DNA from: Candidatus Adlerbacteria bacterium
GTDB lineage: Bacteria; Patescibacteriota; Minisyncoccia; Phycocordibacterales; SBAW01
Assembly (NCBI GenBank): GCA_903819895.1
Contig: CAIJFH010000003.1
Location: 1-44,539 of the forward strand
Direction: 5' to 3'
Length of the DNA: 44,539 nucleotides
Below, one piece after another: positions 10,682 to 24,384 of the stretch (position 1 is its first letter; every line of letters starts with the position of its first letter). The position numbers and the translations under genes were made by a program. Under the pieces are notes generated by a model. It was not told the origin of the DNA. It did not search any database and was given only the letters and a program-made list of their open reading frames with translations.

Positions 10682-11515
10682 ATGCTCAAAAAGAAATCAC
10701 TCGGGCAGAATTTTTTACACACTGCGCACTATGTGCGGGCGGTTGCCGACGCGGGCGAGGTGGCCGCAGGGGACACGGTGCTTGAGGTGGGCCCCGGCGA
10801 CGGCGCGCTCACGAGCGAGCTTTTAGCGCGTGGCGCAATTGTGTTGGCGATTGAGAAGGATCATCGCCTTATCCCGCTCCTGCAAGAGAAATTTAAAGAC
10901 GCGATTGTGCGCGAGCAGCTCTATTTGGTCGAGGGCGACGCGCTGGAGCTGTTGCCCGGGCGGCTGGGCCTGCGCTCGGGCGAGTTTAAAGTGGTGGCAA
11001 ACATCCCGTACAACATCACGGGCGCCCTACTGCGCGCGCTCCTGTCGGGCGATACGCAACCAAACGTGTTGGTATTTTTAATACAAAAAGAGGTGGCGCA
11101 ACGGGTGGTTGCAAAGTCATCGTCATCTAAAGCGCGACCGCAAGAGAGCATCTTGTCGCTGTCGGTCAAAGCATATGGCACACCAACGTATGTTAAAACC
11201 GTGCCGCGTGGCGCGTTTAACCCGCCACCCAATGTCGACTCGGCGATCCTCCGCGTCGCCAACATTTCGCGCAAGAACTTTTCCTCAACCCAGCACGAGC
11301 AGCAATTTTTCAACCTCATCAAAGCCGGGTTTGCCCAAAAGCGAAAGCTCCTGCGCCGCAATATCGAACGCGTGCTTGGCGCGGAGACGCTTGCACTCCT
11401 CCACAAAGCGAGTATTGCCGAAACCGCACGTGCCGAAAACGTACCGCTCGAAAAGTGGCTTACACTTGCCGAACAAAAACAGACGCAGCCAGATTCTCCT
11501 TCAATATCAAATTAG
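10682..11515 (+). CDS. rsmA: 16S rRNA adenine-N6 dimethyltransferase RsmA (KsgA)
   Basis: The enzyme dimethylates two adjacent adenines in the 3'-terminal helix of 16S rRNA, using SAM, during 30S maturation. The 277-residue protein opens with the family start KKKSLGQNFL. It has SAM motif I EVGPGDGALT (residues about 35-44), the acidic motif II end AIEKD, and catalytic motif IV NIPYN (107-111). A C-terminal helical domain includes FAQKRKLLRRNI. The length is normal. The start is set at ATG 10682 because the conserved N-terminus begins there; the frame runs upstream through the lipoprotein gene and terminator, which cannot be coding. TTATAT (10670-10675) ends 6 nt before the ATG. Its last 4 bp overlap the convergent gene at 11512. 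Confidence 0.95.
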   Translation: MLKKKSLGQNFLHTAHYVRAVADAGEVAAGDTVLEVGPGDGALTSELLARGAIVLAIEKDHRLIPLLQEKFKDAIVREQLYLVEGDALELLPGRLGLRSGEFKVVANIPYNITGALLRALLSGDTQPNVLVFLIQKEVAQRVVAKSSSSKARPQESILSLSVKAYGTPTYVKTVPRGAFNPPPNVDSAILRVANISRKNFSSTQHEQQFFNLIKAGFAQKRKLLRRNIERVLGAETLALLHKASIAETARAENVPLEKWLTLAEQKQTQPDSPSISN

Positions 11516-11883: not shown

Positions 11884-11891
11884 ACCTCCAC

Positions 11892-11920
11892 AGTATATAC
11901 TAAAAATAATCCTGTATACT
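11892..11920. promoter_or_regulatory. Symmetric divergent promoter (AGTATA-N17-TATACT)
   Basis: TATACT on the plus strand (11915-11920) ends 7 nt before ATG 11928. TATACT on the minus strand (11892-11897) ends 8 nt before ATG 11883. They are separated by exactly 17 bp, so each -10 occupies the other's -35 position. Both mRNAs would be nearly leaderless, and polymerase could serve only one direction at a time. Confidence 0.6.
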
Positions 11921-11927
11921 GCTAGTA

Positions 11928-12845
11928 ATGCGCGTTCGAGAATATCTACCCAGTATGCAGTTGTCGCTTTTGTTTGCGTCTGTGTGCGTGGCGGGCGGGC
12001 TTGTATTTGCCGCACACACCATCACGACACCAGCAACTCAATCGGCAACCAACACAGACGCAGTGAGCGTCGCCTCATCCACAAACGCAGCAGCACTCCA
12101 GCATGCCAACTGGGAGGCAACACTGTATGAGATCCAAGCGCAGCAAGGGTCGAGCACGCTGCCGACCCCGGCCAACCCCGCAACGGTCGACGGTCTGCGC
12201 CAAGCGGCACAAAGCAGCAATATGACCGACACCATCGCGCGCACACTGCTGGTCAACCTCGCAAACGCCAAGACGCAAGGGCTGGGCGATGATATCCCGA
12301 CACAAAACCAACTTATCACGACGGCGGTCGAACAGGCGAGTATCGGACAAGCCGCAACAGAGTATACGCTGCGCGACCTCATCATTGTTGCTGATTCGCC
12401 AGCGACACTGCGCGCATACGGCAACGCACTCGCCACGACCCACAGCCCTAACGCCGCAAACGATATTAGAGACACATTTGTGGCAATCGACAACGCCACC
12501 GCACAAAACAACCCCGACCTACTGGCACCACTCAAAAAGGTTGCTAAGGATTATCAAACGATGGAGCAACTCCTCCTTGCGGTGCCAGTGCCACAGACGC
12601 TCGCACCGTTTCATCTCCAACTCATCAACAATTTTTCCAAAATCGCAAACACCTACCCCGACATGGAGAACTTGATTGTCGACCCGGTGCGCGGGCTCAA
12701 CGCGATCCAACAGTATAAGTCGCTGAGCGATGGCACGCTCAATGTGTTTATAAATATCGCCCGGGCATTCAATAAAGACGGTATACTTTTCTCTAAGGAC
12801 GAACCGGGCGCATCATGGGGTGTGCTCCTGTCCGCGCAGCAATAA
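11928..12845 (+). CDS. Secreted or membrane-anchored protein, first gene of T4SS-like operon
   Basis: The 305-residue protein has an N-terminal signal-anchor (MQLSLLFASVCVAGGLVFAAHTI, residues about 10-32). A long, probably extracellular helical domain rich in Ala, Thr, Gln and Asn follows (e.g. TLRDLIIVADSPATLRAYGNALA). No known domain is recognised. It is the promoter-proximal gene of an eleven-gene plus-strand block, and its stop lies 4 bp before the next start, so the two are cotranscribed and probably translationally coupled. There is no Shine-Dalgarno; TATACT ends 7 nt before the ATG. In a T4SS-like context it could be an assembly or surface component, but this is guilt by association. 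Confidence 0.8.
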   Translation: MRVREYLPSMQLSLLFASVCVAGGLVFAAHTITTPATQSATNTDAVSVASSTNAAALQHANWEATLYEIQAQQGSSTLPTPANPATVDGLRQAAQSSNMTDTIARTLLVNLANAKTQGLGDDIPTQNQLITTAVEQASIGQAATEYTLRDLIIVADSPATLRAYGNALATTHSPNAANDIRDTFVAIDNATAQNNPDLLAPLKKVAKDYQTMEQLLLAVPVPQTLAPFHLQLINNFSKIANTYPDMENLIVDPVRGLNAIQQYKSLSDGTLNVFINIARAFNKDGILFSKDEPGASWGVLLSAQQ

Positions 12846-12849
12846 CGTA

Positions 12850-15405
12850 ATGTCAAAACGAATTATATACATCGGTCTCGGCGTCCTGGGCATTGCGGCA
12901 CTTATCGCGTTGCTGTGGTGGATTTTCCGCCCCAGCCCCAGCACCACCCCACAGACCAACCTCGGCACCCCGGTGACACAAAACAACACTGGTGGAACGG
13001 GGACAGGCACCAACATTGGCTCACCCATAATCGGCAGCTCGGGCGGGAGCATTGCTGCGCCAAACGGGTCGACCGCCGCGAGCGGGTCACTGACGGGATA
13101 CAAAGGTACTGCTGGCGGGAGCGACGGCACCTACACCGGCAGCGGCGCACCCAGCAGTGCCTACCTCGCACTGTACGGCACCGGCGCTGGCGTGCCAGGG
13201 TACAGCGGAAGTGCTGCAGGAAATGGATCTATCAACACGGGTGCTGGAGGCAGCACCAACACAGGCGTGGGCGGGACACCCTATAACGGTAATGGGTCTG
13301 GGGCTGGAGTGGTCAGCGGGAGTGGCACCGGAAGCACCAAAAATGGAGGCGACACTACGTATAACGGCAACGGGTCTGGAGCGGGGGTGACCGGATATAA
13401 GGGGAACAGCGCTGGGAACGGAACAACAAACACCAATGGCGGAAGCGGGGGCAGCTCATACAACGGCAACGGTGCCGGGCAGGGCGTCCCGGGATATAAC
13501 GGAAATAGCGGAGGCAGCGGAACAACAAACACCAATGGCGGAAGTGGTGGTGGCGGGCAACTCGACACTCCTAATGTCGATTGGCTCTCGGGATCACCAA
13601 ACACATCCACCAACAGCGGGTCGGGGGGTGGCAACACTCGGGGCAACTCGGGTACGGTTTTTAATCCAACCGGTATCAACCAAGTCGCAAATGGTGGTGT
13701 CGATACCACGGGTGTTATCCCTAATTTTGGCACCGGCAACAACGGCCAACAAAAGAAAGGTGGCATCGGCCTCCTCGGCACCGCACTGGTTGCAGGCGCT
13801 GCTGGGGCGCTCACGTGTGGCGCAGTTGAGTTGTTTACCATCGCCGCTGGAGCAACAGCTGGAGCAACAGCTGCAGGGACAGCAAGTGGCGCTGCTGCGG
13901 GCGCACAAGCTGCAACATTCGCAGCACAAGGTGTTGTTGAGACCCCTCGTCTGCCAATAGCTGTCCAAACCATAGATATTGGGCCAGCTGTCGGTGTCGT
14001 AGCGGGTGCCGGAGTCCTTAATGTTGCAAAGTCAACCCAAGATGCAATGGCGCAAGGCAGCCAACACGCGTCCGACACCACCATCAACACGTTTCTCTCC
14101 TGCATCGCCCGCACCGTGGCAAAGATTGCGCTCAATCAGATTACGAACAGTGTCGTCAACTGGATTAACTCGGGCTTTAATGGATCACCATCGTTTGTGC
14201 AAAACCCCGACCAATTCTTTACTAACGTGGCCGACCAAGCAGCGGGGGAGTTTATTAAGGGTAGCGCGCTATCCTTCCTCTGTAGCCCCTTCCAGCTGCA
14301 GATAAAAATAGCCATCGCCAACAGTTATGCAAACAGGAATGCGATGTCCTGTACCCTCACGGGCGTAATCCGCAACATCAACAACTTTATGAGCGGCGAC
14401 TTTTCCTCGGGTGGTTGGCCGGGACTGCTGGCCTTTACCACCGTGCCGACCAACAACCCGTACGGCGCATTTATGTATGCCAATGTTGGGCTCACCTACT
14501 ATGTGCAGACCGCGCAGGGGACACAGCAGCGGCAACTGTCGCTCGCCAACGGATTTTTGGATTTTAAAAAGAAGGTTAATTGCACCACAACACCAACTCC
14601 ACCACCACCAAACGCAAACAGATCTGTCACACAAGACGCCAGTGCCTCATCCGACCTCGGTGGCGCCAGTGCGCAGTACCAGGTGTGCGACTTGGTCACC
14701 ACCACCCCGGGCACCGTGATCCAAAACGCGCTGGTCGGCACCGAAAATAGCTCGCTCAACGAGTTGGGGCTTGCTAAGGACTTCGACGAAATTATCAGCG
14801 CGCTCATATCGCAGTTGATGACACGCACCCTGCAAGGGCTCTCGGACCTCAGCGGGCAGGATGGCTACGCAAGCAACTTCCAAACCCCCGACCAGCAGCA
14901 GGCGATCGCTGCCGCACAAACCGTCCTCTCGGAGATGCAAGCGGACACCGGCTATGCGCAGCAGTATGGTGGCATCGAGCAGCAGAGCATTAGCGATATC
15001 CAAAACGCGCAGCAGCAACTCAACACGCTCTACAATTGTTGGAACTCGATCGCCACCGGCTCGACCACGCCCGACCGTATCCAAACAGCAACCACCAATG
15101 CCGCAGCCGCATCGACCACGCTCCGCTCGCTTCAGCCGCAGGTGGATGCACTTAACAACAACATCACCAACGCAAACTCGTCGATTATGACGCTCCAGAC
15201 GCTCGAGAGCCAGGCCGTGTCGGCACTGTCGACCGCCGAGGTAGACGCCGTAGATGCGCAGTACAACTCCGCGTTGGCAAATGGGCAGATCTACACCCAA
15301 ACCAACGTCACCACCGCGACCCAAGACCGCACCACGCTGCAGAGCCAACTGAGCGCGCTCAACCAACAAACGGCAAACGGGCTCCACCAATGCTATGCGT
15401 ACTAA
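12850..15405 (+). CDS. Giant Gly/Asn/Ser-rich surface protein with repeats
   Basis: The 851-residue protein is read from ATG 12850, where an N-terminal membrane anchor begins (KRIIYIGLGVLGIAALIALLWWIF). Three regions follow. The first is a low-complexity Gly/Ser/Asn/Thr region (residues about 38-300) with repeated units such as YNGNGSGAGV and GTTNTNGGSGG. The second is a hydrophobic Ala/Gly-rich stretch (about 305-365, GLLGTALVAGAAGALTCG and repeats of GATAGATA). The third is a long C-terminal part with scattered cysteines, ending in coiled-coil-like Gln/Asn/Leu-rich helices. The layout suggests a flexible surface fibre or scaffold. No homologue can be named. It overlaps the VirB6-like gene by 11 bp, which argues for a tightly coupled role in the same envelope complex. 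Confidence 0.8.
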   Translation: MSKRIIYIGLGVLGIAALIALLWWIFRPSPSTTPQTNLGTPVTQNNTGGTGTGTNIGSPIIGSSGGSIAAPNGSTAASGSLTGYKGTAGGSDGTYTGSGAPSSAYLALYGTGAGVPGYSGSAAGNGSINTGAGGSTNTGVGGTPYNGNGSGAGVVSGSGTGSTKNGGDTTYNGNGSGAGVTGYKGNSAGNGTTNTNGGSGGSSYNGNGAGQGVPGYNGNSGGSGTTNTNGGSGGGGQLDTPNVDWLSGSPNTSTNSGSGGGNTRGNSGTVFNPTGINQVANGGVDTTGVIPNFGTGNNGQQKKGGIGLLGTALVAGAAGALTCGAVELFTIAAGATAGATAAGTASGAAAGAQAATFAAQGVVETPRLPIAVQTIDIGPAVGVVAGAGVLNVAKSTQDAMAQGSQHASDTTINTFLSCIARTVAKIALNQITNSVVNWINSGFNGSPSFVQNPDQFFTNVADQAAGEFIKGSALSFLCSPFQLQIKIAIANSYANRNAMSCTLTGVIRNINNFMSGDFSSGGWPGLLAFTTVPTNNPYGAFMYANVGLTYYVQTAQGTQQRQLSLANGFLDFKKKVNCTTTPTPPPPNANRSVTQDASASSDLGGASAQYQVCDLVTTTPGTVIQNALVGTENSSLNELGLAKDFDEIISALISQLMTRTLQGLSDLSGQDGYASNFQTPDQQQAIAAAQTVLSEMQADTGYAQQYGGIEQQSISDIQNAQQQLNTLYNCWNSIATGSTTPDRIQTATTNAAAASTTLRSLQPQVDALNNNITNANSSIMTLQTLESQAVSALSTAEVDAVDAQYNSALANGQIYTQTNVTTATQDRTTLQSQLSALNQQTANGLHQCYAY
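13282..13560 (+). repeat. Degenerate in-frame repeats coding Gly/Asn-rich units
   Basis: A 27-bp sequence is repeated exactly at 13419-13445 and 13518-13544, with a period of 99 bp (33 codons). Related TATAACGG(T/C)AA(T/C)GG units occur near 13282, 13360 and 13459. In protein they give YNGNGSGAG, YNGNGAGQG and GTTNTNGGSG. Copy number could vary by recombination. Confidence 0.8.
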
Positions 15406-18043
15406 CCACACCAACATACTCCGCACCATCGTTGGCAAAGCAGTGCTCACCATTGCGCTGCTCATCACCTTTTTTGCACCGCTGGTGGGGATGGTGCCGA
15501 GTGTACGAGCGCAAGCGGTATTAAATTCCCAAGGGGCAACGGCGCAAAATGGGTACGGCACCGCAACCGGTGGGACAACAGGGGCAACACCTTTTAACGC
15601 AGCTGCATCAAATCAAAACGACCCGGGCGGCACTACCAAGTGGGAGTGTGATAAACAAACGAGCATATTCTTGGGCTGTATCATCTACGCCTTTACCGTG
15701 GGGTTAATGAGCGCCGTGGCGTACATCGGCGGGTTTGTGTTCGATGTGGGTGTGCACCTGTCGCTCCAGAGCACCGCATACTCGCTCGACTTTCTCACCA
15801 TGGGCTGGGCAGCGGTACGCGACATCGCCAACATGGCATTTATCTTTATCTTGGTCTACATCGCACTCACCATCATCCTCGAGGCCGAGGGCGTCAACAC
15901 CATGAAGATGCTCGCCGGCGTCGTGGTGATGGCACTGCTCATCAACTTTAGTTTTCTGCTCACCCGTGTCGTCATCGACGCGGGCAACATCCTCGCGATA
16001 CAGTTTTACAACTCAATTAATGCGCCAACCATCGGCGATAGTGCGCAAAAAGCGGGCATCAACCCGGGCGCGGGGGTTACTAATGCAATCGGCCTCAACA
16101 GTAACAGCAAGGATCTTACTGCAAGCATGATGCAGGTGGTGCAGGTGCAAAATATACTCGGAACACAATCATTCCAGACCTTTATCAAAAATAACAACGA
16201 TGCAAGCACGTTTGCATTTATTACCAATCTTATTTCTCAAGCGGTGGTGTTTATTGGCGTTGGTGTAATTTTTGCATTCCTCGCGTTTGCATTCTTTACC
16301 GTTGGGGTGAAGTTTATTCTGCGCATTATCATCCTCTGGTTTGTCATCATCGCCGCGCCGCTCGCGTTTACTGCCAAAGCACTCACTGGCAAAGGGTCGA
16401 TAACTGGATTGTTTGATGAGTGGCTGAATACATTGATTAAGTTTAGCTTTTACCCTGCAATATTTCTTTTTATTTTTCTCATTATCAACTACATATCCAA
16501 CGCGCTGGGTGCAAACAACGGTTTGGTGCCCGCAATATTTAGCGACATAAATGCAGGCACAAATGCGACCACACCAATCCTATACATTATTGGTGCCGCA
16601 ATCGCGAACGTGGCGATCCGCATGGGCATTGTGGTCGCGATGCTCTACTACGGCACACAGGTGACCGACAAACTCGTCACCCACGGCGCTGGAGTCGCGG
16701 GCAATGTCACCGCATGGGCAAGCGGCAAAGCAAACACCTTTGCCCGCCGCGCACCAGTGGTTGCCGCAGCACCACCAACACGAGGAGTACTCGGACTCAC
16801 CGGAGCAGCCGCAACCGGTGCTACGAGAAAACTTGGTTTGGAAAAGACCTGGGTTGGTTATCAAGCGCACAGACTTTCGGAGAAACTTGATACGGTAAAA
16901 GTGAATGGCAAATCACGCGCCGATATTCGTACAGCAAACAAGGAGCACAAAGAACACGCGGAGCATGAAAAGCATGCATACTACAGTAAGATCAATAACA
17001 AAGAGGACTTTGCAACACTCGTTGCGATGATCAAAAAAGAGAAGGCGGGTACTGCGCTTAATCCGAATGAGGAGAATAAGCGAGGTGAAATTATCACCCG
17101 GATGCGTGGCTACTCACAAGAAGAGGTGGACGCACTCAAGAAAGAGGACTTGGTCACCGCGGCTGCATACGTACCAGCACCGATATACAAGAAGATCGAG
17201 GCAAGCAAGAAGCACAGCGACCACGACAAGGACGAGATATTGGGCGCACGCAACAAGGCAATTGCGGAGCCATTTACCAAAAAGCTGCCAGAAAAGATGG
17301 CGGTTCTCACCGCACAAAAGGCCGACGCAGAAACAGCAAAAGCAACGCACACAGCAGCGCTTGCAGCACATGGCGCGGCAAATCCAATCACGGTCGCAGC
17401 GAAAGCAGACCTCGACACCAAGGAGGCGGAGCGCGACACAACCGCCGCCGAGGTAAAGAAGCTTGCCGACCAAATGAACCGCCTTGGCAAAGACGAGTTG
17501 GCCGCGCTCAGCAAGAATGATATCGAAAAGGTGATGACGCATGTCACCGAGCCGATGATGAAGCGCATCGAGGAGAGCGACCGCAACATCACCGAAAAAG
17601 AAGCGTTGCGTGCGCAGTGGGAGGAGCAATCAACGCATGCGCCTCTTGCAGCAGCAAACAAACAAATTGATCTGTTGCGCAAGATTGTTGATGAATTAGA
17701 CGGAACGCGTTTTGCATTAGGTGATACCGATAGTGTCATTGGTGGAGCATCGACTAGGCATCAACTAACAAATCAATCATTTGGTGCCGACTCTGTGGAG
17801 AAAATGGAGAAAGAATTCCGACAAAGAAAGGGTCAACTTGAGACAGCAATCAGGGACAAAAGCAGAGAGGCACAAACAGGCGCCCGAGATGCAGAACTTA
17901 TCTCTCTACGACAAACTCATCATCAGATTGATGCTGGCTTAAAGAAGATCGAGAAACTGGATGAGGAGCGCAAAAAAGTTGGCCCCGAGGTGGGCGGGGA
18001 ACGCGCGCCGGGTAAGTTTAAGACACGAGATTTAATGGCATAA
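15395..18043 (+). CDS. VirB6/TrbL-like T4SS inner-membrane channel protein
   Basis: The 882-residue protein has a signal-like first segment (KAVLTIALLITFFAPLVGMVPSVRAQA, residues about 15-41). A polytopic core follows, with hydrophobic segments near residues 95-120, 145-170, 175-195, 275-305, 308-325, 350-370 and 395-425. The spacing and the YIALTIILEAEG and IILWFVIIAAPLAFTAKALTG segments match the VirB6/TrbL-like proteins of CPR T4SS loci. A soluble tail of about 440 residues, rich in Lys, Glu and Ala and with coiled-coil character, completes it (e.g. KADLDTKEAERDTTAAEVKK). VirB6 proteins form part of the inner-membrane translocation pore; the long tail is not part of the classical family. 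Position between the repeat protein and the PrgI/VirB4 genes supports the call. Confidence 0.8.
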   Translation: MRTNHTNILRTIVGKAVLTIALLITFFAPLVGMVPSVRAQAVLNSQGATAQNGYGTATGGTTGATPFNAAASNQNDPGGTTKWECDKQTSIFLGCIIYAFTVGLMSAVAYIGGFVFDVGVHLSLQSTAYSLDFLTMGWAAVRDIANMAFIFILVYIALTIILEAEGVNTMKMLAGVVVMALLINFSFLLTRVVIDAGNILAIQFYNSINAPTIGDSAQKAGINPGAGVTNAIGLNSNSKDLTASMMQVVQVQNILGTQSFQTFIKNNNDASTFAFITNLISQAVVFIGVGVIFAFLAFAFFTVGVKFILRIIILWFVIIAAPLAFTAKALTGKGSITGLFDEWLNTLIKFSFYPAIFLFIFLIINYISNALGANNGLVPAIFSDINAGTNATTPILYIIGAAIANVAIRMGIVVAMLYYGTQVTDKLVTHGAGVAGNVTAWASGKANTFARRAPVVAAAPPTRGVLGLTGAAATGATRKLGLEKTWVGYQAHRLSEKLDTVKVNGKSRADIRTANKEHKEHAEHEKHAYYSKINNKEDFATLVAMIKKEKAGTALNPNEENKRGEIITRMRGYSQEEVDALKKEDLVTAAAYVPAPIYKKIEASKKHSDHDKDEILGARNKAIAEPFTKKLPEKMAVLTAQKADAETAKATHTAALAAHGAANPITVAAKADLDTKEAERDTTAAEVKKLADQMNRLGKDELAALSKNDIEKVMTHVTEPMMKRIEESDRNITEKEALRAQWEEQSTHAPLAAANKQIDLLRKIVDELDGTRFALGDTDSVIGGASTRHQLTNQSFGADSVEKMEKEFRQRKGQLETAIRDKSREAQTGARDAELISLRQTHHQIDAGLKKIEKLDEERKKVGPEVGGERAPGKFKTRDLMA

Positions 18044-18052
18044 TAGATACCT

Positions 18053-18649
18053 ATGTCAACCACAATCCATTCCGCAACAGAGGCGCAGGAGCAGTTTAAA
18101 AAGCTGCCAAAGGAGGTGCAGGAGTTGCTGTACAGCGACCAAATGCTCGCCATCATCAAACAAATTGGCGACAAAAACCATCTCCACATCGACCAGTTGG
18201 GCACACTTGAAACGACAGTGGGGCAGGTGATGCTTGGGTTTCTCGACACTGCACGTTTCCCCGCTGAGTTGGTCGAGATGCTCGGTGTCGATCGTGCACG
18301 GGCGGATGCGATTGCGCAGGATGTGAATGATTTGCTGTTTGTCCAAATCCGCGAAGCGCTCAAGGCGGTGCCGCGAGTTGCGAATGAGGGCAGCGAGGAT
18401 ACGACGGATGATGCAACAGATGGCACCGACGCGAGAATGGGGGAGGATGCACTGGTGTCAGATGCGGGGGGTACTGGTGCGATTGCTCCGGTGACCGCGC
18501 CGCCGCCAGCACCTCCCAAACCAAAACCATCGGATGTGTCGAGCGCGACCGAAGCGATGCTACACGAGACAACCACCGCAGTGGCACCCGCCACAGCAAC
18601 ACGCCCCGCAATCTACAAAGCCGACCCCTACCGCGAGCCCGTTGAGTAA
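18053..18649 (+). CDS. Helical protein of unknown function in T4SS-like operon
   Basis: The 198-residue soluble protein has two parts. The first is an N-terminal helical domain of about 110 residues (KLPKEVQELLYSDQMLAIIKQIG... to ...DVNDLLFVQIREAL). The second is an acidic, Pro/Ala-rich and probably disordered tail. I recall similar N-terminal domains in Parcubacteria next to PrgI/VirB4 genes but know no function. It lies 9 bp after the VirB6-like gene. A small cytoplasmic factor such as an assembly chaperone or ATPase partner is possible; this is inference from position only. Confidence 0.75.
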   Translation: MSTTIHSATEAQEQFKKLPKEVQELLYSDQMLAIIKQIGDKNHLHIDQLGTLETTVGQVMLGFLDTARFPAELVEMLGVDRARADAIAQDVNDLLFVQIREALKAVPRVANEGSEDTTDDATDGTDARMGEDALVSDAGGTGAIAPVTAPPPAPPKPKPSDVSSATEAMLHETTTAVAPATATRPAIYKADPYREPVE

Positions 18650-18658
18650 TACCTGCGG

Positions 18659-18664
18659 TATACT
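18659..18664 (+). promoter_or_regulatory. Possible internal -10 before prgI
   Basis: TATACT lies in the 23-bp gap and ends 8 nt before ATG 18673. It may give an internal, nearly leaderless transcript of the prgI-virB4 part of the operon. No -35 is seen. Confidence 0.35.
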
Positions 18665-18672
18665 ACAAGGTG

Positions 18673-19143
18673 ATGCAGTACCAAGTCCCGCAATTTATCG
18701 AGGTCGAGGATAAAATATTTGGGCCGCTCACGCTCAAACAGTTTATCTATGTCGCTGGCGGTGGTGGCGCCTGTTTGGCAATTTACACCTTGCTGCCGCT
18801 CTACCTCGCGATCCCCATCTCGCTCCCGATTATCGCGCTGGCACTGTCGCTCGCGTTCTACCAGATCAACGGCCGACCGTTTATCATCGCGCTCGAGCAC
18901 GCCGTCGGCTACTTCTTTGGTGCCAAGTTATATTTATGGAAGCAGCGCACACCACCATCTGCTGCGTCGCAGACACAGACCGCCGCCGACGCTGCAGCCG
19001 CCGCGTCAGAGCAACAGCTGGGGCTCACCGTGCCCAAACTCTCCGAGAGCAAACTCAAAGACCTGTCCTGGTCGCTCAACATCAAAGACAAACAAAGCAA
19101 GCGTATCGATGATACCGATCATCAACAACAGTTTCGCATCTAA
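18673..19143 (+). CDS. prgI: PrgI family T4SS membrane protein (VirB3-like)
   Basis: The 156-residue protein has the PrgI layout: a short N-terminal strand (QYQVPQFIEVEDKIFGPLTLKQFIY), two adjacent membrane segments (residues about 26-48 and 49-66, AGGGGACLAIYTLLPLYLAI and IIALALSLAFYQI), then NGRPFIIALEHAVGYFFGAKLY. A polar tail of about 60 residues is added at the C-terminus. PrgI stands in for VirB3 in Gram-positive and CPR systems and normally partners the VirB4 ATPase, whose gene follows 3 bp later. ATG 18673 is preferred over the in-frame GTG at 18670; AAGG lies 4 nt before it. Confidence 0.88.
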   Translation: MQYQVPQFIEVEDKIFGPLTLKQFIYVAGGGGACLAIYTLLPLYLAIPISLPIIALALSLAFYQINGRPFIIALEHAVGYFFGAKLYLWKQRTPPSAASQTQTAADAAAAASEQQLGLTVPKLSESKLKDLSWSLNIKDKQSKRIDDTDHQQQFRI

Positions 19144-19146
19144 CCC

Positions 19147-19815
19147 ATGACAAGCACACCCGTCAAAGCAAAACAGGCACAGGATTTCGTACCCATCAAA
19201 GAGGTGCGTGATGGCATTGTGATCCTCAAAGATGGCAGTTTGCGTGCGCTGCTCATGGTGTCGTCGATCAACCTCGCGCTCAAGTCGCAAGAGGAGCAAG
19301 AGGCGGTAATCGGCCAGTTTCAAAACTTTCTCAACTCGCTTGAGTTTACGGTGCAGTTTTTTGTCGAGTCGCGCCAGCTCGATATCCGCCCCTATATCGC
19401 CATCCTCGAAGAGCGCTACGCTGCCGAGTTGGACGACCTGATGAAGATCCAGATCCGCGAGTACATCACGTTTATCAAGGACTTTACCCAGCGCTCCAAT
19501 ATCATGTCCAAAAACTTTTTTGTCGTGGTGCCCTACGACCCAGCACTCATCGCGCGCAGCGGCGGGCTCAGCGGCGCGCTGTCGACCCTAATCCCCAACA
19601 AAGAGATGACCACCGGTGGTGTCGTGTCTGACACTCAGTTTGAGCAGTATCGCTCACAGCTGGAGGAGCGGATTTCGGTGGTCGAGCAGGGCCTCGTGCG
19701 CACCGGCGTGCGCACCGCGACACTCGGCACTGAGGAGGTGATCGAACTCTTTTATAAGTTGTTCAACCCCGGCGAGTTGGAGAAGCCGCTCCAGCTCACG
19801 CGTATGGCACAATAA
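19147..19815 (+). CDS. VirB4-like N-terminal domain protein (separate gene)
   Basis: The 222-residue soluble protein resembles the N-terminal, non-ATPase domain of VirB4/TraC/CagE proteins. It reads DFVPIKEVRDGIVILKDGSLRALLMVSSINLALKSQEEQEAVIGQFQNFLNSL..., then a helical SRQLDIRPYIAILEERY and SKNFFVVVPYDP. In most bacteria this part is fused to the ATPase domain. Here it ends with its own TAA, and the ATPase gene starts 5 bp later in another frame. The split form is, to my knowledge, usual in CPR genomes, so this is not read as a frameshift. It probably docks PrgI and the ATPase at the membrane. Confidence 0.82.
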   Translation: MTSTPVKAKQAQDFVPIKEVRDGIVILKDGSLRALLMVSSINLALKSQEEQEAVIGQFQNFLNSLEFTVQFFVESRQLDIRPYIAILEERYAAELDDLMKIQIREYITFIKDFTQRSNIMSKNFFVVVPYDPALIARSGGLSGALSTLIPNKEMTTGGVVSDTQFEQYRSQLEERISVVEQGLVRTGVRTATLGTEEVIELFYKLFNPGELEKPLQLTRMAQ

Positions 19816-19820
19816 CCACT

Positions 19821-21677
19821 ATGGGACTTCTCGACTTTCTCAAACAAAACAACACGCCCAACACGGCTTCGATTGCGCCCATTCTGCCCGAGCAGATTTA
19901 CAAACAAGGTGTGCTTGAGTTGCAAGACGTCATCGCGCCGTCGGCGCTCAAAATCACGCCGCGCGAGATCAACTTGGGCGACAAAATCGCGCGCACCTTT
20001 TTTGTCATGTCCTACCCGCGCACACTGACCGACTCGTGGTTTTCTCCCATCATCAACCTCGACCGCGTGCTTGATGTGTCGATTTACATCCAACCCATCG
20101 ACTCGGCAGACATCTTGCGCAAGTTCCAGAAAAAGGTTGCCGAGATCGAGTCGCAGATTATGACCCGCGAGCAAAAAGGGTTGGTGCGCGACCCGATGCT
20201 CGATACCGCCTACCAAGACCTCGAAAATTTGCGCGACCAGCTCCAACAAGCGCAGGAAAAATTGTTTGATGTTGGCGTATACATATCGATTTATGGCTCG
20301 ACCGTGGAGGAGCTCGACAAGGCCGAGTCGGAAATTAAATCGATGCTTGAGTCGCGACTCATTTATGTAAAGCCAGCACTCTTCCAACAAGAGCAGGGGT
20401 TCAAGAGCGTGCTGCCGCTGTCGCGCGACGAGCTCAATGTCACCTCCAAACTCAACTCCTCGCCGCTGTCATCTATCTTCCCGTTTGTCTCGTTCGACCT
20501 TACCTCCGACCGAGGAATCCTCTATGGCGTCAACCGACACAACGCGTCGCTTGTGCTGTTTGACCGCTTTTCGCTCGAGAACTATAACTCGGTGATTTTT
20601 GCCAAGTCCGGCTCGGGCAAATCGTACACCACCAAGCTGGAGATTTTGCGCACGCTCATGTTCGACACCGAGGTGATTGTCATCGACCCCGAGCGCGAGT
20701 ACGAGTTTTTGGCACAAACGGTGGGCGGCCGCTACTTCAACATCTCGCTCAACTCCGAGCACCATATCAACCCGTTTGACCTCGCACCCCCACGCGAGGA
20801 CGAAAACCCGGCCGACGTGCTGCGCTCGAATATCGTCTCGTTGGTGGGGCTCTTTCGGCTGATGCTCGGTGGACTCACACCAGAGGAAGACGCGATTATC
20901 GACAAAGCAATTACCGAAACCTACGCGCTCAAGGACATTACGGTCGACAGCAACTTTGCCGAGATCGAGCCGCCTCTGCTCTCGGACTTCGAGATGGTGT
21001 TGTCGGGGATGGAAGGCAGCGAGTCGTTGGTGCAGCGCATCTCCAAGTACACCAAGGGCACCTGGTCGGGCTTTATCAACCAGCCGACCAACGTCGACAT
21101 CAACAAAAAGTTTGTGGTCTTTTCGGTACGCGATATGGAGGATGACCTCAAGCCGGTCGCGATGTACCTAATTACCCACTACATATGGAACAACGTGCGC
21201 AAGGTGCTCAAAAAGCGCTTGCTGGTTATCGACGAGGCGTGGTGGATGATGAAGTCGGACGACACCGCATCGTTCCTCTACGGCATGGCCAAGCGCGGAC
21301 GCAAGTACTACTTGGGCCTCGCGACCATTACCCAAGACGTCGACGACTTTCTCAAATCGCCCTACGGCCTGCCAATGATCACCAACTCGTCGATCCAACT
21401 CTTGCTCAAGCAGTCGCCAACCACGATTGATAACCTACAAAAAACATTCAACCTCTCGGACGAGGAGAAGTTTCTTTTGCTCGAGTCGGATGTGGGGGAG
21501 GGGATCTTTTTTGCCGGACTCAAACATGTCGCCATCAAGGTGATTGCATCCTACACCGAGGACCAGATTATCACCTCCGACCCATCCCAAGTGTTGGCGC
21601 TGCGACAGCAACGTGCCGAGGCAAAAGAGTTGGTGGACAACGGAGTGCAAAACCCTCCCGAACCCTCGCCGAAATAG
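19821..21677 (+). CDS. virB4: VirB4/TraC-type T4SS ATPase
   Basis: The 618-residue ATPase energises the T4SS-like machine. An N-terminal part of about 230 residues (LEVQD-like region, then FFVMSYPRTLTDSWFSPIINL) precedes the P-loop ATPase. That domain shows Walker A AKSGSGKSY (from residue 261), FDTEVIVIDPEREYEFL, HHINPFDL, and Walker B LLVIDEAWWMMKS (DEAW at 471-474). MAKRGRKYYLGLATITQDVDDFL and TNSSIQLLLKQSP follow, all classical VirB4 features. The catalytic motifs look intact, so the system should be active. The start ATG has no Shine-Dalgarno but sits 5 bp after the stop of the N-domain gene, consistent with coupled translation. Confidence 0.95.
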   Translation: MGLLDFLKQNNTPNTASIAPILPEQIYKQGVLELQDVIAPSALKITPREINLGDKIARTFFVMSYPRTLTDSWFSPIINLDRVLDVSIYIQPIDSADILRKFQKKVAEIESQIMTREQKGLVRDPMLDTAYQDLENLRDQLQQAQEKLFDVGVYISIYGSTVEELDKAESEIKSMLESRLIYVKPALFQQEQGFKSVLPLSRDELNVTSKLNSSPLSSIFPFVSFDLTSDRGILYGVNRHNASLVLFDRFSLENYNSVIFAKSGSGKSYTTKLEILRTLMFDTEVIVIDPEREYEFLAQTVGGRYFNISLNSEHHINPFDLAPPREDENPADVLRSNIVSLVGLFRLMLGGLTPEEDAIIDKAITETYALKDITVDSNFAEIEPPLLSDFEMVLSGMEGSESLVQRISKYTKGTWSGFINQPTNVDINKKFVVFSVRDMEDDLKPVAMYLITHYIWNNVRKVLKKRLLVIDEAWWMMKSDDTASFLYGMAKRGRKYYLGLATITQDVDDFLKSPYGLPMITNSSIQLLLKQSPTTIDNLQKTFNLSDEEKFLLLESDVGEGIFFAGLKHVAIKVIASYTEDQIITSDPSQVLALRQQRAEAKELVDNGVQNPPEPSPK

Positions 21678-21679
21678 GG

Positions 21680-21685
21680 TACAAT
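21680..21685 (+). promoter_or_regulatory. Possible internal -10 before the 21694 gene
   Basis: TACAAT ends 8 nt before ATG 21694, the same spacing as at other genes here. No -35 is seen. Confidence 0.35.
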
Positions 21686-21693
21686 AGTGAGTA

Positions 21694-22446
21694 ATGAGTA
21701 CGCTCAACAAAACATGCATCATCATGTTTGCGGTGCTGATTGATTTCTTGCAAGCAACACTCTCTGCTGGTGTTGCTGCTATTGCTGCTTTTGCTGGCAC
21801 ACTTGGTGGCGCAGCAGCGGGCTGCTATGTTGCAAACCAAGTAATAAGCAGCGAGACCAGTTGCGCCGCTGGCGCTGCAATAGGTGCATTTTTTGGCACA
21901 GTAGCAAACCCAATTGCCTCGACCGTCGCACTGCCGCTTGGTATCGCCTTGGGTATCGCACTTACCTTGTGCATCTCGTTTACCTTTGGCACTATTTTCT
22001 ACCTCTGGTTGTGGAGCACCAAGTTGTGGTACCCCGGACAAATCTGGCTGCCAGCACTGCTCAAAACCATCCCTATCCTAAGCGACCTGCCGGCGTTTAC
22101 CTTTACCGCAGTACGCTGTGTAATACAAAAAAATCTTGAGGAGAAAAAGCTGCAGCAAAGCCCATCAAACACCTTCGGCACCATGCTCGCGCCTGGCACC
22201 ATGCTTGGCGGGGCAGCCGCGACCGCATACACTCTCAACCACTACACCCAAAGAAAAGCGGTTGCTGCGGGGCTCGCTACAGACGCGGGGCAAACCGCGC
22301 GACGCGAGGAGTTTAAAAACCGCACCACAATGGACCTGCGCCGCATGGATGGTATTTATGCAAAAACATCTCCGCAAGAGGCAAGGAGTCGTGGCACCAT
22401 CGACGAAACCGCACCAACACAACCACTCTATGTACAGCCTGCGTAA
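21694..22446 (+). CDS. Polytopic membrane protein of unknown function in T4SS-like operon
   Basis: The 250-residue protein has about four hydrophobic segments in its first 130 residues. Examples are IIMFAVLIDFLQATLSAGV, the Gly/Ala-rich AAIAAFAGTLGGAAAGCYVA, and IALGIALTLCISFTFGTIFY. A polar tail of about 100 residues, probably cytoplasmic, follows. No family is recognised. It lies 16 bp after the VirB4 ATPase gene and its 3' end overlaps the next gene by 17 bp. A second small channel or anchor subunit is plausible by position. Confidence 0.75.
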   Translation: MSTLNKTCIIMFAVLIDFLQATLSAGVAAIAAFAGTLGGAAAGCYVANQVISSETSCAAGAAIGAFFGTVANPIASTVALPLGIALGIALTLCISFTFGTIFYLWLWSTKLWYPGQIWLPALLKTIPILSDLPAFTFTAVRCVIQKNLEEKKLQQSPSNTFGTMLAPGTMLGGAAATAYTLNHYTQRKAVAAGLATDAGQTARREEFKNRTTMDLRRMDGIYAKTSPQEARSRGTIDETAPTQPLYVQPA

Positions 22447-23497
22447 TCATACACATACTGTGTGCACACTCGCCGCACTGTTGGTGGTGTGGATTATTGC
22501 CGCATACACAACACCCATCGCGCACGCCCAACTGAGCAGCACCAACCAGCCCGACCCGGTGCAGTACACCATCGCACCCGAGGTGCCGGGGCCAAACCAG
22601 AGCGTGTCTATTTTTATCGAAGGGGTTGGATCATTCTTGGGCAATGCAACGGTCACGTGGGAGAAAGATGGTGTCGTCGCTGCAACGGGTGTGGGCAAAA
22701 ACTCCTACTCGTTTACCACGGGTGGGGTAGGGCGAGTAACCGTGATCCACCTCACGATCGACTCGCCCACACAAGGCACCATTACGCACGACTTTGCTTT
22801 TAACCCATCGGTCGTCAACCTGGTGTGGGAGGCGGACACTACCGCCCCAACGTTCTACCTTGGCAAACCGCTCTACAGCGCGGGCTCGAGCGCGCGTGTG
22901 GTCGCATTCCCCACCATTTTGTCCAACGGCGCACTCGCAGCAAACAATACGCTCTCGTTCCAATGGTCGCTCAACAATACGCTCGCGCCGACACAATCGG
23001 GCATCGGGAGAAATGTATTTACCTTTACTGGTGACGAGCTCCAAACAAGCGAAAGTGTCAGTGTCGATGTCTACCTTGGCGGCACCAAGGTGGGCCACAG
23101 CGATATCACAATCCCCGTGAGCACACCACAGCTGGTGCTCTACAACCAAGACCCGCTGCGCGGCGAGGTGCTCGACCAAGCGCTGAGCGGCCCCGCGACA
23201 CTCAGCGCTAAAGAGGTGACCTTGGTTGCCGAGCCATACTTCTTCTCCACGGCAAGCAAAAAAGATGGCTCGTTGTCCTACACCTGGATGCTCAACAGCA
23301 GCGAAGTGACCGGCCCCGACTCGGCACACGGGGTACTCACCCTGCGCCAAACGTCCTCGGGGGCGGGGAGCGCACAAATTGGCGTCTCGGTACAAAACAC
23401 AAACAATACTACCTTTATGCAAGCGGCCCAAACCGGCATCTACCTCACCTTTGGCACCCAAACCGGCGCAGCGCTCTCTAACTTCTTTGGGATATGA
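22430..23497 (+). CDS. Secreted Ig/PKD-like beta-sandwich protein
   Basis: The 355-residue protein is read from ATG 22430, where a signal peptide begins (TVCTLAALLVVWIIAAYTTPIAHAQ, cleavage after about residue 32). The mature part is made of repeated beta-strand segments, e.g. APEVPGPNQSVSIFIEG, NATVTWEKDGVVAATG and SLSYTWMLNSSEVTG. Their spacing and the Trp-containing strands (TWEKDG, FQWSLN, YTWMLN) suggest three Ig- or PKD-like domains. No catalytic motif is seen. It is likely an extracellular structural or adhesive part. The longer frame to 22136 overlaps the upstream gene and is rejected. It shares the ATGA stop/start with the pilin-like gene. Confidence 0.8.
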   Translation: MYSLRNHTHTVCTLAALLVVWIIAAYTTPIAHAQLSSTNQPDPVQYTIAPEVPGPNQSVSIFIEGVGSFLGNATVTWEKDGVVAATGVGKNSYSFTTGGVGRVTVIHLTIDSPTQGTITHDFAFNPSVVNLVWEADTTAPTFYLGKPLYSAGSSARVVAFPTILSNGALAANNTLSFQWSLNNTLAPTQSGIGRNVFTFTGDELQTSESVSVDVYLGGTKVGHSDITIPVSTPQLVLYNQDPLRGEVLDQALSGPATLSAKEVTLVAEPYFFSTASKKDGSLSYTWMLNSSEVTGPDSAHGVLTLRQTSSGAGSAQIGVSVQNTNNTTFMQAAQTGIYLTFGTQTGAALSNFFGI

Positions 23498-24384
23498 AAC
23501 AGATTTTGAAATATAGTGTTTTGTTTCTATTTGCGTTAGCATTTTCGATATTTGCTATTACTTCTACCACAAAAGCAGCGACTGATAACTGCCCTGAGGT
23601 CACTGTGGCTACTTATGGCGCAACATACAACACCAACTGCAATTACCAATACAATATTTGTACACAAAATGGTACTGCTGCAGATGTGTGTGCAAATCAA
23701 GCTCAATTATATGTGCTCGATGGATACAAACTAGACCAATGTGGTGCTGGCTATCTGCAAGCCAACAATCTTCCCGCATGCACTCAGGACATGTCCCCTG
23801 TAGTATCGGAAATGACTCAGATACAGCAAGATTATCTGACCCCAGCAACAAACGGCTCGGGGAGTGGTAGCGGTAGCGGCGGAAGCGCCAGCGGATCTGG
23901 CACGGGCGGTGCGGCGGGGTCGGCAGCGGGCAGTAATGGTAATATTTCCTACGTACCCCTTGAGCCGATACCGGGAGCAAATCAAACAGGGACGGTTTCG
24001 TTTGGTTTATTGCTGACTGGATTACTCAAAACACTTATCTCGCTCGGCGGGTTGGTGGCGGTGCTCGCACTCATCTTTGGTGGCGTTGCCTACATGGTGT
24101 CGTCGGTTGGCGTCACCTTGAGTGCCGCCAAGGAGCGTATGAAGTCGGCCATTTACGGTCTACTGTTGCTCATTGCCTGTTGGCTCATCCTGAGCACTAT
24201 CAACCCACAACTCCTTTTCTTTCCCGACTCGTTTAGCCCAGTACCCAGTACCTCAATTAATACCAACAACGCCCAAACACAAACACCAGCTACAATACCT
24301 TCATCTGGAACACCCATACAAACACCTCAACCAGCGGTCCCGTATCAAAACGGTGTTCCTTTGGAGATGACACCTGCGGGATGA
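23494..24384 (+). CDS. VirB2-like T4SS pilin of CPR type, with N-terminal Cys domain
   Basis: The 296-residue protein has a signal peptide (residues about 1-28), a small Cys-rich domain (six or more Cys in residues 33-95), and a Gly/Ser linker (about 115-145). Two hydrophobic helices follow, ISLGGLVAVLALIFGGVAYMV and AIYGLLLLIACWLILSTI, joined by a short polar loop (SAAKERMKSA). The helix-loop-helix matches the VirB2/TrbC-type pilin domain seen in CPR. A Pro/Thr/Gln tail ends the protein. It is much longer than a classical VirB2 pilin (about 100 residues), and the Cys domain is an addition. The ATGA overlap couples it to the Ig-like gene. Confidence 0.82.
   Translation: MKQILKYSVLFLFALAFSIFAITSTTKAATDNCPEVTVATYGATYNTNCNYQYNICTQNGTAADVCANQAQLYVLDGYKLDQCGAGYLQANNLPACTQDMSPVVSEMTQIQQDYLTPATNGSGSGSGSGGSASGSGTGGAAGSAAGSNGNISYVPLEPIPGANQTGTVSFGLLLTGLLKTLISLGGLVAVLALIFGGVAYMVSSVGVTLSAAKERMKSAIYGLLLLIACWLILSTINPQLLFFPDSFSPVPSTSINTNNAQTQTPATIPSSGTPIQTPQPAVPYQNGVPLEMTPAG

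Follow-up and report, generated by a model that had tools for sequence, protein, structure and literature searches.

The window analyzed here is a stretch of 44,539 nucleotides from a Candidatus Adlerbacteria genome, in which a T4SS-like operon and the gene for a small protein, P0001, diverge from an intergenic region of 44 bp (11884-11927). Encoded on the minus strand, P0001 (11512..11883; 123 aa) comprises an N-terminal signal peptide or anchor helix followed by a predicted OB-like beta domain (approximately residues 33-123) with two invariant cysteines and the conserved core SFGG...PC...YIWTP...C. The protein matches no Pfam or NCBIfam family, and the best structural matches of its AlphaFold2 model (five strands, pLDDT 88) are OB domains (RecO, CusF, PriB and SSB), with Z scores of up to 8.8 that lie barely above the common chance level. 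Its position beside the operon suggests an accessory role in the T4SS. Small secreted, predicted OB-like proteins of this family adjoin T4SS loci across the order. To the left of P0001 lies rsmA; the two genes are convergent, and their 3′ ends overlap by four bases (11512-11515).

The operon starts on the plus strand with P0002 (11928..12845; 305 aa), a protein with an N-terminal hydrophobic segment and no Pfam or NCBIfam match, and continues on the same strand through 12850..24384, where large unnamed proteins are accompanied by several profile matches. These comprise a PrgI family protein (18670-19143; 39.8 bits, cutoff 27), a VirB4-like ATPase of the CD1110 family (19821-21677; NF045971, 387 bits, cutoff 325) and a T4SS pilin-like domain within 23494-24384, for which the T4SS_pilin match reaches an E-value of 5e-5 but, at 23.7 bits, stays under the Pfam cutoff of 26.6. 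The locus thus combines the VirB4-like ATPase and PrgI/VirB3 components by which a T4SS is recognized in Patescibacteria, and the assignment of this neighbor as a T4SS operon in a first-pass annotation of the sequence is borne out. Upstream of VirB4, a TATACT hexamer also lies 8 nt before the ATG of the PrgI gene (18659-18675) and is a possible internal leaderless promoter of the operon. The window further contains dnaA and dnaN downstream; Patescibacteria are known to carry a T4SS close to the replication origin (PMC12102498).

The intergenic region

Direct reading of the sequence places AGTATA at 11892-11897, a 17-nt spacer at 11898-11914 and TATACT at 11915-11920. The hexamer on the minus strand (TATACT, read as AGTATA on the plus strand) lies 8 nt from the ATG of P0001 (11883-11881), and that on the plus strand 7 nt from the ATG of P0002 (11928). 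The arrangement AGTATA-N14-18-TATACT is found at a single place in the window, and 100 shuffles yielded no instance of it. The hexamers, their 17-nt separation, the distances of 8 and 7 nt to the divergent start codons and the 44-bp gap had all been listed in the first-pass annotation, and every one of these coordinates checks out; the description of the arrangement as face-to-face is a misnomer, because the hexamers point apart and are therefore back-to-back.

Three further features lie in the same region. The left box forms the palindrome AGTATATACT, inside which a second, upstream TATACT is present on the plus strand (11896-11901); it is common to the nearest relative (G027) and absent from most other relatives, and could provide an additional start for the T4SS operon, in which case the transcript would carry a leader of about 20 nt rather than being leaderless. 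Between the two hexamers, the plus strand carries the A-rich tract AAAAATAA (11902-11909). Directly abutting the ATG of P0001, with a 0-nt spacer, is GGAGGT (11884-11889), which can be read as a Shine-Dalgarno sequence at too short a spacing and is probably due to chance, given its lack of conservation in most relatives.

A genome-wide promoter grammar

The spacing between hexamer and start codon at this locus recurs throughout the source genome (837 kb). In the 579 kb that were read in stretches for offset counts, an ATG follows TATACT at +6, +7 and +8 in 47, 20 and 17 cases, respectively, compared with a background of roughly 4 at each offset, and the whole genome contains 122 TATACT-N5-9-ATG sites versus 28 for the control. 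Comparable TATACT-to-ATG enrichment is present in five other members of the genus. In a class-wide sample, where the TATACT hexamer alone was tested, the TATACT-N6-8-ATG signal is strong in the order to which this genome belongs and in a few other families, and is not class-wide.

Alignment of 78 TATACT leaderless promoters of this genome reveals that G is enriched at both bases preceding the hexamer and that positions 5-10 nt before it lean weakly toward A/T; the alignment carries no -35 information. A scan with the sigma-70 consensus returned no match at the locus, and a TTGACA-like hexamer 16-18 bp upstream of the -10, as expected of a classical sigma-70 promoter, is absent here. The 7 and 8 nt that separate the two intergenic hexamers from their start codons fall within the 6-8 nt of the leaderless arrangement. 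As judged from sequence, TATACT placed 6-8 nt before ATG, with no -35, is the leaderless -10 promoter of this genome at large. Given the genome-wide signal and the conservation described below, the earlier proposal that both hexamers are -10 elements of leaderless or nearly leaderless mRNAs very probably holds. A limited literature search turned up no relevant account of leaderless genes in Patescibacteria, which is no proof of absence.

The first-pass annotation had called such a symmetric, nearly leaderless element unusual, a view that finds no support in view of the 122 sites above and several further divergent leaderless pairs in the same genome (gaps of -2, 0, 3, 14, 29 and more). Gaps between unrelated divergent genes in these genomes range from -4 to 60, and across the genus the divergent pairs as a whole showed no single favored spacing. 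Because other such pairs occur in both genome and genus, closely packed back-to-back leaderless promoters are a general feature. At two other divergent pairs of the source genome, L085:17413-17422 (G000:C24) and L063:2547-2561 (G000:C1), the TATACT hexamers overlap or are 3 bp apart, and the overlapping pair is a candidate for a true bidirectional leaderless promoter.

Conservation and geometry in related genomes

Relatives were taken from GTDB and are MAGs; the family set comprises 41 genomes, with 35 readable loci including that of the window itself. P0002 was found in 38 of the 41 genomes and relatives of P0001, at E<=0.001, in 23 of them. On the criteria of position and motif, 29 of the 35 readable loci carry a divergent ORF at the corresponding place, which usually encodes a small secreted, predicted OB-like protein. 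The divergent ORF spans about 485 aa in G032, G033 and G024; the P0001-like domain is C-terminal in the G024 protein, and the match to P0001 falls within the G032 protein.

On the T4SS side, a hexamer (TATACT, TATAAT or TACAAT) precedes the start by 6-9 nt in all 35 readable loci, including the six that have no partner gene and keep the T4SS promoter. The remaining loci adopt three layouts. In 13 loci the hexamers are 14-18 bp apart (14, 15, 17 or 18), mostly with an A-tract between them, and the partner-side hexamer is present in 12; this class includes G022, whose weak partner hexamer allows a reading of either 15 or 17. In another 13 loci the hexamers merge into one overlapping palindrome (-4 or -2), with the partner-side hexamer present in every case as TATACT, TATAAT or, once, TATATT. 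Three loci have wide spacings of 31, 59 and 64, the first of these (G001) lacking a good partner hexamer. Among the 26 spaced and overlapping loci no spacing falls between -2 and 14, a gap that could reflect either selection or history. The P0002 tree implies four changes between the spaced and overlapping layouts, many of its deep forks being weakly supported.

A separation of exactly 17 bp is found in the window and in five other clear loci of the spaced class; in the nearest relative, G027, it is 18. The first-pass annotation had itself proposed that loss of the 17-bp spacing in close relatives retaining the gene pair would speak against its interpretation, and in its strict form that interpretation fails, because relatives that keep the pair have spacings of 14-18, of -4 or -2, or of 31-64. 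Several loci from more distant families of the order also retain the gene pair, again with varied spacing. The divergent promoter pair beside the T4SS operon is conserved in the family, and the fixed 17-base geometry is not.

The A-rich tract is associated primarily with the T4SS side. The middle of the spacer in the spaced class is 61% A and 16% T on the plus strand, and AAAA lies 4-14 nt ahead of the T4SS hexamer in 9 of 13 spaced loci and in 3 of 4 same-genus loci without P0001, versus 23 of 175 sampled leaderless TATACT promoters (9/13 versus 23/175: Fisher p 2e-5, uncorrected for kinship). Its occurrence in loci without P0001 argues that the tract belongs first to the T4SS promoter. Measured from the predicted transcription starts, AAAAATAA overlaps approximately -18 to -25 for the rightward promoter and, on the opposite strand, approximately -17 to -24 for the leftward one. 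AT-rich sequence near -18 is known to compensate for an absent -35 (PMC12825309).

Interpretation of the promoter pair

The explanation that we favor, and hold with considerable confidence, is that the locus consists of two leaderless promoters lacking a -35 and placed back to back. Each would follow the pattern that appears normal for this genome: a TATACT -10, often with G at the two preceding positions, and a transcription start at or within about 2 bases of the start codon. The leftward promoter would drive P0001 and the rightward one the T4SS operon, with the A-rich tract probably assisting the rightward promoter and perhaps serving both, as an AT-rich -18 region in place of a -35 box. 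The distance between predicted starts is about 42-45 bp in the window and 21-23 bp in the 13 overlapping relatives, and in either layout two polymerases are likely to exclude each other sterically. Because a single polymerase footprint would span both promoters, one bound polymerase would probably exclude the other. The likeliest outcome would be simple co-location, with both genes expressed over time from the same short stretch and competition arising only if one side were strongly active.

A more elaborate interpretation is that selection has favored the symmetric, overlapping promoters as a built-in either/or switch, in which a polymerase bound one way silences the opposite direction and so couples production of the secreted protein to that of the secretion machine. 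Most of the genus and some further families of the order retain the gene pair, 26 of the 29 loci with a partner adopt either the overlapping (-4/-2) or the 14-18 bp layout with none in between, about four interchanges are seen on the tree, and each layout places both promoters within one footprint. We nevertheless consider the switch unlikely: the loci that have lost the partner keep the T4SS promoter, three loci are spaced at 31-64 bp, and the gaps of -4 to 60 between unrelated divergent genes indicate that close packing may simply reflect compact leaderless genomes. Moreover, the E. coli bidirectional promoters that have been tested show no competition at basal activity, which becomes possible once one side is activated (PMC12825309). 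We attach a similarly low probability to the related proposal that two discrete geometries, an overlapping palindromic -10 or -10 elements 14-18 bp apart around an A-tract, interconvert repeatedly since polymerase exclusion sets the ratio of secreted accessory protein to T4SS.

The inverted repeat CAGTATA-N17-TATACTG might instead be the operator of a dimeric regulator rather than two promoters, as its perfect 7-bp arms and a third, imperfect copy, CAGTATGCAG (CAGTATG), at 11951-11960 would allow. An operator is very improbable, however, given that the spacing between the arms varies from 14 to 18 and collapses to overlap, yet the distance from each hexamer to its own ATG holds at 6-10 nt; loci without P0001 retain the rightward hexamer only, single hexamers precede leaderless genes genome-wide, and the third copy encodes a conserved peptide (LPS-x-Q) and varies in relatives. 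Least credible of all, and rejected here, is the earlier suggestion of two classical sigma-70 promoters that each use the partner hexamer as a -35 at the optimal 17 bp, which matches the spacing here and in the five other clear spaced loci but conflicts with the lack of -35 information in the 78 aligned promoters, the agreement of AGTATA with TTGACA at 2 of 6 positions, the varied spacing in relatives and the overlapping layouts, which offer no partner hexamer at -35. Under the preferred reading of two back-to-back leaderless promoters, each hexamer would be an ordinary -10, as the genome-wide TATACT grammar without a -35 indicates, and the 17-bp separation coincidental.

Comparison with known systems

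The Patescibacteria T4SS loci, which are homologous to monoderm conjugation machinery, resemble the operon described here in their VirB4-like ATPase, PrgI/VirB3 and proximity to replication origin genes, and also in a pilin-like protein, for which the operon has a below-cutoff candidate; in the part of that account used for this comparison, the promoter and the divergent small OB-like secreted protein are not described (PMC12102498).

Leaderless genes in which a -10 motif immediately precedes the ORF have been reported in Deinococcus-Thermus (PMC12340547) and in a wider survey (PMC3160421). The genes of Deinococcus-Thermus likewise have a -10 a few bp upstream of the start, need no -35, maintain a specific spacing to the ORF and account for a large share of genes (PMC12340547), whereas here the consensus is TATACT, the setting is a genus of Patescibacteria and the starts are predicted from sequence. 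For this uncultured genus, a simple promoter grammar (TATACT, 6-8 nt, ATG, no -35) should aid in fixing start codons and transcription units.

The locus also recalls the prokaryotic bidirectional promoters of Warman and Grainger, with which it shares divergent, symmetric -10 elements, a polymerase that would bind one way at a time and an AT-rich -18 region that could replace the -35 (PMC12825309, PMC10268837). That class is defined by divergent starts 7-25 bp apart (PMC10268837), with shared or overlapping -10 elements, and the predicted starts of the window, at about 42-45 bp, lie outside this range, so that the window contains a pair of closely spaced divergent promoters and not a single bidirectional one. 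The approximately 29 orthologous divergent promoters preceding this secretion operon form a natural series of varied geometry that offers a test bed for promoter overlap and polymerase competition, and within it the 13 overlapping relatives, on their predicted starts, do fit the definition of a bidirectional promoter.
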